Shown one piece after another: positions 10,999 to 15,139 of a stretch of DNA of 64,000 nucleotides. The notes under the pieces are model-generated. The model had not been told where the DNA came from, did no database searches, and saw only the letters and a program-made list of their open reading frames with translations. Every line of letters begins with the position of its first letter. Position 1 is the first letter of the stretch. The stretch is from Bryobacteraceae bacterium (lineage in GTDB: Bacteria > Acidobacteriota > Terriglobia > Bryobacterales > Bryobacteraceae): NCBI GenBank assembly GCA_023384675.1, contig JAHDVK010000007.1, positions 124,001-188,000 of the forward strand, given 5' to 3'. Position numbers and translations under genes: made by a program.

Positions 10999-12411
10999 TC
11001 AATCGGACTTCCGCGCCACCGCGATCAATGAAGTGGGCTTCCACGGCAGCCACCGGTCCATGCGGCGCCACAACCATACAAGGCGATCGAACACCCAAAT
11101 CTGGAAACGCGAGAATGTCCGCCGCTTCAATATCCGTCCGTTGACATACCAGCCGGGCCGCGTCGGGCGATTAAAATGCAGGACCGTCTCTACCTCCAGG
11201 CGCGCCTCGGCAAGCTTCGCCCGCAGATCGCTCTCTTCATAACGGCGGCAGTGGCCCAGCGCTTCATCCAGCGTTCCATAAACGCTCATCCCCTCGGGTA
11301 CCAGCACCACGGCTCGTCCGCCCGGAGCCAGCGCGCGGTAAATGTTGGAAAGCGCCAGGCGATCGTCCTCGACATGCTCCAGCACATTCAGACAAACCAC
11401 CGCGTCTACACTGCCTTCAATCTCGTCGAAGTCCGCCGGGCGGGCTAGATCGCACCGCCGCACCTCCACCTGCGGCCGGTGCGAGAAGCGAGCGCGCAGC
11501 CGCGCCAGGTGCTCCTCATCGATGTCCGTGGCGAGATAGCGCTCACGCCGTGGCGCCAGATGCCTGGACAGGTTCCCTATGCCCGCGCCGATCTCCAGCA
11601 CCCGCCGCCCCAGGAAGGGCCGCACCGTCTCCGCCATCCACACGTTGAAGCGGGGCGCGCGGGAGAGAATGTCCAAAATCTCCGGCCCCGCCTCGCGATA
11701 GATGTTTCTCGTCACCGCGCACCGGAGGATCGTGAACACCGCCCGGAATGCGTCGGCCTTCCCGATCTTCTTCCCCTCCTCGTACGTGCGCCCGTGGTAG
11801 CTGACCGGCGTCTCATACACCGGCACTTGTCGCTGCGCCAGTTTGATCGTGATCTCGGGTTCAAACCCAAACCGGTCGGAGACGATGGGAATGGATCGCA
11901 GCAGTTCCGTTCGCGCCGCCTTATAGCAGGTCCACACATCGGTCAGGTTCAGATCCGCCACCACGTTCACCATCGTCGTCAGCAGGTGGTTCGCGAACGA
12001 ATGCCAGAAATAGAGCACTCGCCGTTCGCCGCCGACGGCGAAGCGGGTTCCATACACGGCCTCGGCGCGGCCCTCCATCAGCGGCCCCAGCAGCCGCATG
12101 TACTCGCGCGGATCGTACTCAAGATCGGCGTCCTGGATGATCGTGAACTCGCCGCGGGCTTCCTTCATCGCTGTTCGGATCGCCGCGCCCTTGCCGCGGT
12201 TCCCCCCATGGTGGAAGACTCGCGCCATCCCGGAATGGGCTGCTGCGAACGTCTCCGCGATCTCTCCGGAACCATCCGTCGATCCATCGTTTACGATCAG
12301 AATTTCACGCGGTCCCGGTAGCGGCGCTTCCACCACCCGCCGAAGCAATTCAGGCAGAAATTCTTCTTCATTCCATACCGGGATAATGATGCTCAGCAGA
12401 GGGCGTGTCAT
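10999..12411 (-). CDS. Bifunctional glycosyltransferase (GT2) / SAM-dependent methyltransferase fusion
   Basis: Two fused enzymes, about 470 residues. Residues 1-230 form a GT-A domain of the dolichyl-phosphate-mannose-synthase/DPM1-like GT2 group: LLSIIIPVWNEEEFLPELL, VNDGSTDGS, the metal-binding DADLEY, then RFGFEPEITIKLA and SYHGRTYEEGKKIG. Residues about 260-400 form a class I methyltransferase with VLEIGAGIGNLSRHLA, the acidic end of strand 2 (ATDIDEEHL) and CLNVLEHVEDD. A basic, aromatic C-terminal tail (FDRLVWLWRRMDRWLPW) may bind the membrane. ATG 12411 gives the usual N-terminus; a GTG at 12423 is possible. A full-length paralogue lies at 45.1 kb. It likely works on a polyprenyl-linked sugar in envelope glycan synthesis; the order of the reactions is unknown. 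Confidence 0.85.
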   Translation of the reverse strand: MTRPLLSIIIPVWNEEEFLPELLRRVVEAPLPGPREILIVNDGSTDGSGEIAETFAAAHSGMARVFHHGGNRGKGAAIRTAMKEARGEFTIIQDADLEYDPREYMRLLGPLMEGRAEAVYGTRFAVGGERRVLYFWHSFANHLLTTMVNVVADLNLTDVWTCYKAARTELLRSIPIVSDRFGFEPEITIKLAQRQVPVYETPVSYHGRTYEEGKKIGKADAFRAVFTILRCAVTRNIYREAGPEILDILSRAPRFNVWMAETVRPFLGRRVLEIGAGIGNLSRHLAPRRERYLATDIDEEHLARLRARFSHRPQVEVRRCDLARPADFDEIEGSVDAVVCLNVLEHVEDDRLALSNIYRALAPGGRAVVLVPEGMSVYGTLDEALGHCRRYEESDLRAKLAEARLEVETVLHFNRPTRPGWYVNGRILKRRTFSRFQIWVFDRLVWLWRRMDRWLPWKPTSLIAVARKSD

Positions 12412-12498
12412 GGCTGATCTCACATTGTCACCGATTCCGGTCCGTCCGCGCCTGCCATCCCCTAGCGCCGCCCGCCGCCCGGGTGCATCCTAAAACTG

Positions 12499-13689
12499 AT
12501 GCGTATTCTACTGTTCAGCGGGAAAGGCGGGGTCGGAAAAACCAGCCTCGCCGCAGCCACGGGTGTCCGCCTCGCTCAGCTTGGCTACAAAACTCTGGTC
12601 ATGAGCGTTGATCCGGCCCATTCCCTTGCCGACTGCTTCGATCTCAAAAGCAGCCTGTTTGATGCCTCCACCGCCGATCCCCAGGAGATCGCGCCAAACC
12701 TCTCGATCCATGAGGTGAATATTCAGCAGGAAATCAAACGCCACTGGCGCGAGATCGCGGGCTACATCACCTCGATTTTGAAAACTTCCGGCCTCAATCA
12801 CGTCGAGGCTGAGGAAATGGCTATATTCCCGGGGATGGAAGAGCTCAGCGCCATGATGTACGTCAATCAATGGCGCAAGGAGCAGCGCTTCGATGTCATC
12901 GTCCTCGATTGCGCCCCCACCGCCGAATCGCTCAGGTTCGTCTCCATGCCGACCACGCTCGACTGGTACATGAAACACATCTTCCCCATGCAGCGCGGCA
13001 TCCTCAAAGCCGTCCGGCCTCTGGCCAATCGCATCTCACCCGTCGATTTACCCGCCGACAGCTACTTCGCCAACGTCAAGGACCTCTACAACAAAATTGA
13101 AGGTATTGACACTTTGATGGAGGACCCGCAAACCACCAGCGTCCGCCTTGTCACCAACCCCGAGAAGATGGTCGTTCGCGAAACCCAACGGGCCTTCGTC
13201 TATTTCTCGCTCCACGGCCTTACAGTCGACGGCATTATTGTGAACCGCGTGCTCCCGGACGAAGTGCGGGACGGATGGTTCGGCGAATGGCGTGAATCAC
13301 AGCAGCACTTCCTCGGCGAGGTGGAGGCCTACTTCGCGCCCGTGCCCGTGTGCCGCGTACCCCTGCAACAGAGGGAAGTCGTCGGGCTGGAACGGATCAC
13401 CGCGCTCGCCAATCTGCTCTATCAGGAAGGCGGCGATCCCGCTGCGGTCACCCGCACCGAACGCCCCTACACCTTCACGCGAACCGCGGACCACTGGGAG
13501 GTGCGCCTCAATGCGCCCTTCGCCGGCAAAGGCGAAATTGGCCTGTTTAAGAAGGGCGACGAACTCGTCGTCACTGTCGGTACCGTGCGCCGGCACATCG
13601 GGCTGCCCACCTCGATGGCCGGACTCTCGCCAGTCCGGGCGAGGCTCGATGGCGGTACCCTGGTAGTGGAGATGAAGGAAGCGGCATGA
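12499..13689 (+). CDS. ArsA/GET3-family ATPase with C-terminal HSP20-like domain
   Basis: About 396 residues. A deviant Walker A motif with the signature lysine (FSGKGGVGKTS, K9 and K14) is followed by the switch I segment MSVDPAHSLADCFD and a Walker-B-like VIVLDCAPTAESLRF, all typical of ArsA/GET3 ATPases. The last 90 residues (FTRTADHWEVRLNAPFAGKG to the end) form a small beta domain like the ArsA HSP20-like domain. There is no arsB, arsR or arsD nearby, so arsenite efflux is not supported; a role in protein or membrane-protein handling is equally plausible. Its stop overlaps the next gene as ATGA, and an ATP-grasp gene follows, so the three form one operon. Confidence 0.85.
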   Translation: MRILLFSGKGGVGKTSLAAATGVRLAQLGYKTLVMSVDPAHSLADCFDLKSSLFDASTADPQEIAPNLSIHEVNIQQEIKRHWREIAGYITSILKTSGLNHVEAEEMAIFPGMEELSAMMYVNQWRKEQRFDVIVLDCAPTAESLRFVSMPTTLDWYMKHIFPMQRGILKAVRPLANRISPVDLPADSYFANVKDLYNKIEGIDTLMEDPQTTSVRLVTNPEKMVVRETQRAFVYFSLHGLTVDGIIVNRVLPDEVRDGWFGEWRESQQHFLGEVEAYFAPVPVCRVPLQQREVVGLERITALANLLYQEGGDPAAVTRTERPYTFTRTADHWEVRLNAPFAGKGEIGLFKKGDELVVTVGTVRRHIGLPTSMAGLSPVRARLDGGTLVVEMKEAA

Positions 13690-13916
13690 GCGAAGAGACC
13701 AAAACCAACCAAACCACCTGCGGCGATTGCCTGTGCCAGGGCGCCGGACCCGCTTTCACCGAATTCCTGCGCCGCCTTGGCCCTCCTCCCGAGGCCAAGC
13801 GCCATTTCGATACGGCTCGCGTGGAATTCCTCAAGGGTCTCCGCAGCCTGATTGACCAGCGCATCAGCGACATCAACCGTACCGAGTCCAAAGGCGCTTC
13901 GATCACGGTAGAATAA
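13686..13916 (+). CDS. Small CxxC protein coupled to the ArsA-like ATPase
   Basis: A 76-residue soluble protein that starts inside the stop of the ArsA-like gene (ATGA), so its translation is coupled. The N-terminus has a cysteine cluster, TTCGDCLCQGAG, a possible metal or redox site; the remainder is predicted helical (HFDTARVEFLKGLRSLIDQR) with a conserved-looking ending KGASITVE. I do not recognise a named family. The position suggests a partner or substrate adaptor of the ATPase, comparable in principle to small partners of GET3-like ATPases. Being only 8 nt before the ATP-grasp gene it belongs to the same transcript. Confidence 0.75.
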   Translation: MSEETKTNQTTCGDCLCQGAGPAFTEFLRRLGPPPEAKRHFDTARVEFLKGLRSLIDQRISDINRTESKGASITVE

Positions 13917-13924
13917 GCGGTGCT

Positions 13925-15139
13925 TTGAGCGTACAACCCCCTCTTACCCTGCTCGCCATCGCGAGCTATGAAAAAGGCCACGCCTTCCTCCGCCAGGCGA
14001 AACAGGGCGGCGCCCGTGTCTTCCTGCTCACCTCGCTCAGTCTCAAGGACGCTGCGCAATGGCCCCGCGAATCGCTCGACGATATCTTCTACATGCCCGA
14101 CCAGCAGAAGGTATGGAACTTGGATGACACGCTCAAGGCCGTAAGTTACCTCGCCCGCACGGAACCAATAAGCCGTATCGTCGCCCTCGACGACTTCGAC
14201 CTCGAAATGGCCGCCTCGCTGCGCGAACACTTGCGCCTGCCGGGCTTGGGCGAATCGGCCACCCGCTATTTCCGGGACAAGCTCGCCATGCGCATGGGTG
14301 CGGCGCGTGCGGGCATCGCCGTGCCCGATTTCATTCACGTCCTGCACCACGGCCGGCTCGCGGAATTCATCGCGCGCGTCCCCGCCCCCTGGGTGCTGAA
14401 GCCGCGCAGCTCCGCCGGCGCCATGGGCATCAAAAAGGTCCACAGCGCGGAAGAGCTATGGGCGATTCTCGAACAACTCGGCGACGAACAATCGCATTAC
14501 CTGCTCGAGCGCTACGTGCCCGGCGATATCTTTCACGTAGACACGATCGTCTACAACGGCGAGATCCGCTTTGCCGTAGCCAGTGGCTACGGACGCCCGC
14601 CGATGGATGTCGCCCACAGTGGCGGTGTCTTCACCACTCGGCTGGTCGAGCGCGGCTCACCGAAAGAGCAGGCGCTGCTCGCGCTGAATCGTGAAGTGAT
14701 GTCCGCCCTCGGCCTCACCCTCGGCGTCTCGCACACGGAATTCATCGCCGGCCACGACGGCCGCCTCTATTTCCTGGAAACCTCCGCCCGCGTCGGCGGC
14801 GCGCATATCGCCGACCTCGTCGAAGCGGCCACCGGCTTGAACCTGTGGGCCGAATGGGCGCGCGTCGAGTTTGCCGGCGGCGACGCTCCCTACGAACTCC
14901 CGCCTCTCCGCCACGACTACGCCGGCCTGATCGTCTCCCTCGCACGCCAGGAGCACCCGGACACATCGGCCTACACCGACCCTGAAATCGTCTGGCGTCT
15001 CAACAAGAAAAACCATGTCGGATTCATCGTCCGCTCGGATTCCCACTCGCGCGTCAGTGAACTGCTCAACGCGCTCACCACGCGCGTCCAACAGGACTTC
15101 CAGGCCTACGCCCCGCCGCGCGACCGCCCAACGGAGTAG
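13925..15139 (+). CDS. ATP-grasp carboxylate-amine ligase-like protein
   Basis: About 404 residues beginning at a TTG codon. The N-terminal pre-ATP-grasp part (residues 1-110, LLAIASYEKGHAFLRQAKQG) precedes the ATP-grasp fold: FRDKLAMRMGAARAGI, APWVLKPRSSAGAMGIKKV with the ATP-binding lysine loop, the hinge HYLLERYVPGDIFHVDTIV, and the metal-binding FIAGHDGRLYFLETSARVGG. This looks like the carnosine-synthase/BL00235-type group, which joins an amino acid or peptide to a carboxylate through an acyl phosphate. Substrate unknown. It follows the ArsA-like ATPase and the small CxxC protein in one operon. Start codon is uncertain because no strong Shine-Dalgarno sequence precedes the TTG. Confidence 0.8.
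   Translation: MSVQPPLTLLAIASYEKGHAFLRQAKQGGARVFLLTSLSLKDAAQWPRESLDDIFYMPDQQKVWNLDDTLKAVSYLARTEPISRIVALDDFDLEMAASLREHLRLPGLGESATRYFRDKLAMRMGAARAGIAVPDFIHVLHHGRLAEFIARVPAPWVLKPRSSAGAMGIKKVHSAEELWAILEQLGDEQSHYLLERYVPGDIFHVDTIVYNGEIRFAVASGYGRPPMDVAHSGGVFTTRLVERGSPKEQALLALNREVMSALGLTLGVSHTEFIAGHDGRLYFLETSARVGGAHIADLVEAATGLNLWAEWARVEFAGGDAPYELPPLRHDYAGLIVSLARQEHPDTSAYTDPEIVWRLNKKNHVGFIVRSDSHSRVSELLNALTTRVQQDFQAYAPPRDRPTE

Follow-up and report, generated by a model that had tools for sequence, protein, structure and literature searches.

The locus considered here, in a window of 64,000 nt (the whole stretch of DNA analysed) from a member of the Bryobacteraceae, raises the question of what an ArsA-like ATPase may do when it is encoded in close succession with a 76-residue protein and an ATP-grasp ligase. 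A sequence-only reading had taken the three coupled frames, with no link to arsenite export, for one modification or client-handling system made of a GET3-like ATPase with an HSP20-like tail, a cysteine-cluster adaptor and the ligase. The frames themselves were verified, together with the ATGA overlap that joins the first two genes and the gap of 8 nt between the second and the third:

12499..13689, forward strand: ATPase gene, 396 aa, ATG start, frame verified
13489..13674, forward strand: alpha-crystallin (HSP20-like) domain (aCD), ATPase residues 331-392
13686..13916, forward strand: small partner gene, 76 aa, frame verified, without a Pfam or NCBIfam match
13686..13689, forward strand: ATGA overlap, shared by the ATPase stop and the small-gene start codon
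13925..15139, forward strand: ATP-grasp ligase gene, 404 aa, TTG start, PF13535 at 35.1 bits

The HSP20-like tail was likewise borne out: the ATPase matches PF02374 (ArsA_ATPase) with 310.9 bits (E = 1.2e-92) and, at its C-terminus, PF17886 (ArsA_HSP20) with 58.5 bits against a cut-off of 22.5 (E = 4.8e-16), and it lies above the cut-off of TIGR00345 (245.6 versus 135 bits). The arsenite pump ATPase ArsA shares the ATPase family; however, the window protein has one ATPase domain in its 396 residues and not two halves, and it reaches 94.6 bits for the pump family TIGR04291, whose cut-off is 650. No arsB, arsR, arsD or any other ars gene was found among the eight neighbouring genes scanned, which encode a glycosyltransferase-methyltransferase, an MFS protein, TrpRS, a methyltransferase, an outer-membrane barrel, a glycosyltransferase and two short proteins. 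Family scores and neighbours agree on a GET3-like and not an arsenite-pump ATPase, and a function in arsenic resistance was rejected on both grounds.

As judged from its sequence, the ATPase is a Get3d, with the same Get3/ArsA core and C-terminal aCD as NosGet3d (All4481) and AtGet3d (At1g26090). In common with these known forms it lacks the CxxC zinc motif of Get3, none of the three cysteines in its translation (DCF, LDCAP and VCRV) being arranged in that way. Its sequence matches in the PDB include NosGet3d (3igf/8egk) and, weakly, AtGet3d (8elf); with the model of a relative from Chloroflexi, Foldseek aligned 390 and 394 columns to 3igf_A and 8egk_A, respectively, and 413 to 8elf_A. It differs from NosGet3d and AtGet3d in that the P-loop, switch I and switch II appear complete, as in the green sulfur and non-sulfur Get3d forms described in the available part of PMC10248533, the one structural paper on Get3d that the literature search turned up. 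The protein remains under the cut-off of the NosAFP equivalog (NCBIfam NF050088; 141.7 versus 325 bits). By size and description, and not by tree, it can be likened to cluster 8 of the bacterial ArsA homologues of Castillo and Saier 2010 (PMC2963123), single-domain proteins with a mean of 396 aa from eight bacterial phyla, including one of 395 aa from Solibacter Sus1; the genome-context survey in that work gave no functional clue for clusters 8-13, to which this size class belongs.

The ATP-grasp gene is judged to be a local addition, a bystander to the conserved pair formed by the other two genes. It exceeds the PF13535 (ATP-grasp_4) cut-off of 27 bits; as to the carnosine-synthase-like character suggested in the sequence-only reading, none of the best 25 of its 36 NCBIfam matches passes the respective cut-off (top PRK02186, 78.6 versus 625 bits). 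Across 61 related genomes it was found in 13, adjoining the pair in four, and in two genomes (G003 and G022) it is present without the ATPase; at eight of its loci elsewhere, with frames read by eye, the neighbours are other genes, a permease-like protein in two and another shared protein in three, with no common theme beyond those across the eight. The tight spacing, in the window and in three other genomes, speaks for the three genes as one system of ATPase, cysteine adaptor and ligase acting in modification or client handling, but the distribution of the ATP-grasp gene contradicts it, also by the refutation rule given with the sequence-only reading itself, so this proposal was rejected and must be regarded as barely credible.

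The small gene, as a second member of the locus, is a steady companion of the ATPase. Among the same 61 relatives it was detected in 27, and the aCD-bearing ATPase in 28; every one of the 27 follows the ATPase gene on its strand, at a distance of up to about 35 nt in 25 cases and of 0.46 and 1.19 kb in the other two. It occurs in 27 of the 29 genomes with an ArsA-type match (E <= 1e-30) versus none of the 32 without (Fisher p = 2.6e-15, uncorrected for kinship); the genomes are related, so that the p-values for pairing and for the hook described below overstate independence, and the pairing is far from chance. In 30 fetched Get3d loci of Acidobacteriota, a hooked small gene lies within 400 nt in 23; one locus has a small gene with a degenerate end, KEKEVK (L121), one has it cut by the contig end (L141), one carries the hook fused in cis to Get3d, ...RRMTRIEVQE (L140), two have the small gene elsewhere in the genome with no adjacent copy, and in two no small gene was found.

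For the 76-residue protein, Pfam gave nothing up to E = 1, neither the alpha-crystallin domain nor DUF5304 (PF17230), and the profile of the small proteins, when run against the PDB, retrieved nothing of use (best E = 0.14). Its recognisable features are the following:

13719..13736, forward strand: cysteine motif C12-x2-C15-x-C17, TTC12GDC15LC17QG
13803..13874, forward strand: conserved amphipathic helix HFDTARVEFLKGLRSLIDQRISDI, residues 40-63, from alignments and a hydrophobic-moment calculation
13890..13913, forward strand: C-terminal hook KGASITVE (I73-x-V75), the IxI/V pattern of small heat-shock proteins

The hook ends the small protein in all 26 aligned relatives, the helix is also present in the models of two relatives, and the N-terminus is variable across the alignment. 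Helix and hook are the recurring features and the cysteines are less constant. In the alignment of 26 relatives, C15 and C17 alone occupy columns with at least 90% cysteine; of the 26 close relatives, 20 have a CxC, CP is found in 27 of the 29 members from the phylum of the deltaproteobacterium L161 and CPIC in several actinobacterial members, but in Chloroflexota just 21 of 62 members have any cysteine, and eight have two within four residues, in the stretch scanned. The motif behind the proposed cysteine-cluster adaptor is thus real, whereas its generality is not upheld, and a metal-binding adaptor as the general function is weakened. The small protein might alternatively be a metallochaperone or redox switch, presumably comparable to ArsD or Hsp33, whose cysteines would bind a metal or metalloid or sense oxidants while the ATPase responds; the CxC, CP and CPIC motifs would suit such a role, which is nevertheless improbable in view of the scarcity of cysteines in Chloroflexota and the lack of ars genes among the scanned neighbours.

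Relatives of the small gene adjoin Get3d in Acidobacteriota, Chloroflexota, deltaproteobacteria, Scalindua, Actinomycetota (including DUF5304), Firmicutes and archaea; the helix is common to them, and the IxI/V hook terminates almost all of them. In Chloroflexota, the small gene was found in 62 genomes and not in 139; Get3d is present in 55 of the former versus 60 of the latter (Fisher 5.5e-10), and the hook in 53 of 55 small proteins accompanied by Get3d versus one of seven that are not (Fisher 3.1e-6); the hooked protein for which Get3d was not detected is that of G660, and Get3d occurs with a hookless one in G517 and G544. The phylum of L161 has the small gene in 29 of 198 genomes, adjoining Get3d in 26 of the 29 and with the terminal hook pattern in 27. 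DUF5304-type matches were obtained in eight of 149 genomes of Actinomycetota, five of them above the cut-off; seven of the eight loci adjoin a Get3d-type gene, and the proteins end in RIDLD, RISVR, RIDLG, RIPIR or RIDVG. DUF5304 (PF17230) of Actinobacteria resembles the small partner family in being small, in its place beside a Get3d-type ATPase and in its RIDLD end, and its short actinobacterial matches contain the helix region, often with CPIC; it differs in that the window protein does not match it, and one of the 29 members of set A7 reaches E = 0.031. That the small protein is a mere client, or the product of a short gene with no relation to Get3d beyond translational coupling, would accord with its shortness and variable N-terminus, but is very doubtful given its retention beside Get3d in several phyla and on either side, its occurrence elsewhere in the genome in the two Acidobacteriota without an adjacent copy, and the hook fusion of L140.

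The association is not universal. In a scan of named genomes, 27 of 42 full-length Get3d loci had no adjacent recognised small gene (eight cyanobacterial, five from Chlorobiaceae, three from Bacteroidota, five from Chloroflexi and six others), and profile searches found none in 24 of the 39 genomes of that scan with full-length Get3d, in 60 of the 115 Chloroflexota that have Get3d or in any of 146 cyanobacteria; of six such Chloroflexota inspected, three show a diverged small protein ending in IPLD. Get3d genes for which no small gene was recognised are thus numerous, and the hook cannot be a general requirement of the Get3d aCD. A broad tail pattern is weak on its own, found at 17 of the 42 Get3d loci versus beside 14 of 108 control genes. 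Of the 17, three appear to be chance matches (L150, L173 and L180), and the pattern misses L154.

The hook has its closest counterpart in the small heat-shock proteins (Hsp20), which likewise end in [IV]-x-[IV] after a charged linker; there, aCD and arm are on one chain, whereas here the aCD is on the ATPase and none was recognised in the small protein. All 17 Hsp20 controls carry the terminal IxI/V motif behind their own aCD, and the available part of PMC4823740 places the docked motif between beta4 and beta8. The window ATPase stops four residues past the last aCD strand (LVVEM-KEAA), without an IxI/V tail, and 46 Get3d proteins end a median of 6.5 residues past that strand, counted in alignment columns, with only L140 truly having the motif. 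AlphaFold2 models of read-through constructs, which join two separate proteins, give a predicted hook strand and not its pairing partner; in the alignments used, coverage of the small protein was limited to three rows, separate small proteins being left out because MAFFT placed them against the wrong part. For L165, the small-protein stretch 390-442 is under pLDDT 50, and block 441-450 has a mean of 73 with 88 at the last residue and strands at 446-448 and 450, so that within the small protein the model is confident for the hook alone; for L153, the hook at 482-485 is modelled as a strand, with a block mean of 63.

A strand modelled without its partner would also suit a dedicated Get3d partner with its hook bound not in the aCD groove but to the ATPase core or to some other strand edge, for example as a Get4-like nucleotide-state regulator. 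The pairing evidence would be identical, and the Get4 site is reported as filled by the aCD in Get3d in the available part of PMC10248533, which can be counted in favour of this alternative; it is unlikely, as the motif is that of the small heat-shock proteins, where the controls have it behind their own aCD, and the Get3d aCDs are without it. Contrary to docking on the aCD, the crystal structures in the same source show this domain packed on the ATPase dimer, and the groove may be partly covered.

The reading preferred here, with a probability of roughly 0.6, is a two-part chaperone in which the small protein is a C-terminal arm in trans, an adaptor clipped onto the aCD of Get3d. By analogy with Get3, the P-loop ATPase would handle clients by shielding hydrophobic segments; its aCD lacks the C-terminal arm of small heat-shock proteins, which the small protein would supply. 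The last residues, [IVL]-x-[VIL]-E, would form a strand docking on the aCD, possibly in the equivalent of the beta4-beta8 groove, and the docked hook would clip the helix and the N-terminal, often cysteine-bearing, segment onto Get3d. The small protein may then act as an adaptor or regulator of client loading, with a possible effect on the ATPase cycle and perhaps a role for the cysteines. On balance, the evidence also leans towards Get3d and its small neighbour being a split small heat-shock protein, with the aCD on the targeting ATPase and both the IxI/V arm and an adaptor helix on a separate partner family that takes in DUF5304 and extends over several bacterial phyla and archaea.

In the available part of PMC10248533, the role of the aCD is considered unclear, new partners are said to be needed and Get3d is tied to photosynthesis; no partner of the kind accompanying the window Get3d was found described there. 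Nor was a described Get3d partner, a paper on DUF5304 or an arm of a small heat-shock protein acting in trans found in the searched literature, in which few subscription journals and preprints were covered. If the preferred reading is true, the small protein would be the first Get3d partner to be described, the aCD would gain a role as an adaptor dock, and a function could be offered for DUF5304. In many lineages that are not known for photosynthesis, archaea included, Get3d is accompanied by this small protein, which is conserved and has an end that would fit the aCD. The purpose of this domain would thereby become a simple binding question, with the small protein as a partner that can be named.

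Three reading frames that the sequence-only reading had tentatively assigned to one undescribed modification or client-handling system are real and lie where it had placed them:

12499-13689, + strand: ATPase, 396 aa; Pfam ArsA_ATPase and ArsA_HSP20
13686-13916, + strand: small protein, 76 aa; no Pfam match; ATGA overlap with the ATPase gene
13925-15139, + strand: ATP-grasp protein (ligase), 404 aa; Pfam ATP-grasp_4; TTG start, 8 bases after the small gene

A neighbour in the window is an outer-membrane barrel with a carboxypeptidase regulatory domain; the divergent neighbour (10999-12423, − strand) joins a glycosyltransferase family 2 domain to a methyltransferase domain, an arrangement also kept in the related genome G001 (L021).

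Profiles and motifs identify the ATPase as a Get3d. Pfam and NCBIfam give a Get3/ArsA core with an alpha-crystallin (HSP20-like) domain (aCD) at the C-terminus, and the translation has GKGGVGKT, SVDPAHS and DCAPT intact and no CxxC. It is matched in sequence by NosGet3d (3igf/8egk) and weakly by AtGet3d (8elf), a modelled Chloroflexi relative can be aligned with these structures over 390-413 columns, and its score lies below the NosAFP equivalog cut-off. The arsenite-pump ArsA was rejected as its identity, as had been suspected from the sequence, since TIGR04291 gives only 94.6 bits against a cut-off of 650. In passages of their description of Get3d, Barlow et al. (2023) state that it is unclear what the aCD does and that new partners would be needed (PMC10248533); an excerpt of Castillo and Saier (2010) assigns a homologue from Solibacter to cluster 8 and states that gene context gave no functional clue for clusters 8-13 (PMC2963123).

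Among 61 related genomes, the small protein was found in 27, the ATPase in 29 and the ligase in 13. Every one of the 27 small genes follows the ATPase gene in the same orientation, at no more than about 35 nt in 25 of them and at 0.46 kb (G020) and 1.19 kb (G007) in the others. Two genomes have an ATPase match and no small protein: G058, where the match is a different protein, 30% identical and without the aCD range, and G057 (L101), a genuine exception to the pairing. G002 and G003, from the same genus as the window, both lack the ATPase and the small gene, and G003 retains the ligase. The latter adjoins the pair only in G000, G001, G008 and G014, with 69-100% identity to the window copy versus 54-66% in the other nine; since the four pair-adjacent copies are the most alike, its position is consistent with one insertion event. 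The proposed three-gene unit is thus reduced to the ATPase and the small protein, with the ligase outside the pairing. In G037 the ATPase was matched as two pieces in different frames (L043:1403-2618), either by a frameshift or by an assembly error.

The alignment of 26 relatives of the small protein comprises an N-terminal stretch of variable sequence that contains a cysteine motif, a helix (consensus HFRNARVEFLKGLRSLIDxRIExL), a short linker and a conserved end (KGTx[VIL]xV[ED]) carrying a C-terminal [IVL]-x-[VIL] motif (the hook), of the IxI/V pattern of small heat-shock proteins (sHSPs). CxC is present in 20 of the 26, CP in 27 of 29 members from the delta-type phylum, and any cysteine in 21 of 62 Chloroflexota members. 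Within the phylum, the small-protein profile matched 33 of 396 genomes (E<=0.01), and 22 of the 29 loci inspected (L047-L075) have the ATPase inside the fetched flank; the other seven are an unlinked pair (L065, L066) and weak or spurious matches (L064, L072-L075). The unlinked genes, near frames that by eye resemble secG and tpiA, come from two genomes whose Get3d has no adjoining small gene. Thirty Get3d loci were taken, those with the best-scoring aCDs of a scan that also matched some twelve Get3d genomes with lower scores. In 23 of the 30, a small gene with the hook lies no more than 400 nt away; in the remainder, the end is degenerate (L121), the small gene is cut by the contig end (L141), hook and Get3d are fused (L140), the small gene is elsewhere in the genome (L126, L130) or no small gene was found (L137, L143). 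Divergent small proteins adjoining Get3d mostly keep the helix and the end, and the small gene precedes the ATPase gene in L119, L121 and L123. The fused Get3d (L140:1104-2396, − strand) has a 40-residue extension ending MTRIEVQE, so that hook and aCD are naturally fused in one protein.

According to excerpts of PMC4823740 and PMC3638399, sHSPs bind one another through a C-terminal IxI seated in the beta4-beta8 groove of a neighbouring aCD. An IxI-type motif lies within the 14-28 residues that follow the last strand in 17/17 Hsp20 proteins, of which sixteen come from the window's phylum and one from its own genome (21 loci scanned, four without a recognisable frame excluded and one chance second frame dropped), whereas 46 Get3d proteins stop a median of 6.5 residues past the last aCD strand and carry the motif in L140 only; a regular-expression match in L171 is proline-rich and was not counted. 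The small protein therefore has the part missing from the Get3d aCD. As a control, 3465 mechanical ORFs of at least 50 aa from the named-genome loci have strict hook ends in 0.5% and loose ones in 2.2%.

In Chloroflexota, where the small gene was found in 62 of 201 genomes, Get3d (E<=1e-60) is present in 55/62 genomes with the small gene versus 60/139 without (Fisher 5.5e-10). The terminal hook, scored as [VIL]-x-[VIL] lying one or two residues from the C-terminus, occurs in 53/55 small-gene genomes with Get3d versus 1/7 without (p=3.1e-6), although five of the six hookless, Get3d-less genomes look like one lineage, so independent events are fewer than they appear. Get3d is inside the fetched flank of 35 of the 62 small genes; several others are some kilobases from it on the same contig, or unlinked. 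Among the 60 Get3d genomes in which the profile matched nothing, six were inspected: three have a diverged small gene ending IPLD and three have none. Chloroflexus-type genomes have a hookless homologue (L262, L263, L324). Away from Get3d, most small proteins of L304-L318 end QIKIE or RI(D/A)I(D/N/T), with a second IxI-like stretch, RITIEIDRP, ahead of the helix in at least L315 and L316; in L294-L296, L298 and L299, from genomes without detected Get3d, a hookless relative seemingly has the helix motif twice.

The named-genome scan with the Get3d alignment gave at least 80 loci, and a small gene of the same kind, by reading, adjoins Get3d in 15 of the 42 full-length loci examined:

Bacteria: Chloroflexi L152-L154; Actinobacteria L155, L159; Dethiobacter L156; deltaproteobacteria L158, L161, L174; Scalindua L162; Terriglobia L172; Thermoclostridium L184
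Archaea: L165, L176, L187

The window's pair resembles that of L172, and this likeness, with the outer-membrane barrel near the pair, suggests a host among the Acidobacteriota. The 27 full-length loci without an adjacent small gene are 8 cyanobacterial, 5 Chlorobiaceae, 3 Bacteroidota, 5 Chloroflexi (L157, L163, L171, L173, L177; L157 and L163 have a small gene elsewhere or convergent) and 6 others. A7, the profile of 29 small-protein members, matched 15 of 39 named Get3d genomes. Whole-genome scans found the small gene in 29 of 198 genomes of the phylum of deltaproteobacterium L161, beside Get3d in 26, and in 0 of 146 cyanobacteria, a phylum with no positive control. DUF5304 (PF17230), which does not match the window small protein, matched 8 of 149 genomes of an actinobacterial phylum, five above cut-off; the flank holds a Get3d-type gene at seven of the eight loci, L367 being the exception, and the small proteins end RIDLD, RISVR, RIDLG, RIPIR or RIDVG. 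Elsewhere, Get3d is followed by a different small protein in two Chlorobiaceae (L178, L183), two Get3d-type genes lie in tandem at L186:4010-6348 with no small gene recognised, and in Dethiobacter (L156:3331-5375) Get3d is flanked by two hook-ending proteins, KKIDIE upstream and RKVEIQ downstream.

Two loci with the small gene in frame after Get3d were modelled as single chains, the stops between being read as residues. The L153 (Chloroflexi) model has mean pLDDT 79 and pTM 0.72, with the aCD strands present; in its small protein, strands 406-432 and helix 441-469 are at 60-70, linker 471-477 is below 50, and the hook (482-485) forms a strand with a block mean of 63. The L165 (archaeon) model has mean pLDDT 82 and pTM 0.80, with residues 390-442 below 50; at its end, NKIEIK, block 441-450 averages 73, the last residue reaches 88, and strands fall at 446-448 and 450. 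Because this tail is confident and the stretch before it is not, the predicted tail should rest on the ordered part, at a surface the model output leaves unseen.

In the proposed mechanism, Get3d would be a chaperone whose sHSP-type arm is a separate, detachable protein. The hook would clip the small protein onto the aCD, and the helix and N-terminal segment of the small protein would then regulate or feed the ATPase. The Get3d structures, as described in passages of PMC10248533, have the aCD at the position where Get4 binds Get3, so the small protein would sit, by analogy, where the eukaryotic upstream adaptor acts; in certain lineages the cysteines may also bring in a redox or metal signal. 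The window small protein has no covering family model in Pfam or NCBIfam, and no model is common to more than two of the 29 A7 members. The literature search found Get3d as this protein in PMC10248533 and in two mentions in PMC12040988, no description of such a partner in the portions of text returned, and no paper on DUF5304. What would be new here is an undescribed partner family for a known ATPase, together with the proposal that a known chaperone architecture is divided between two proteins.
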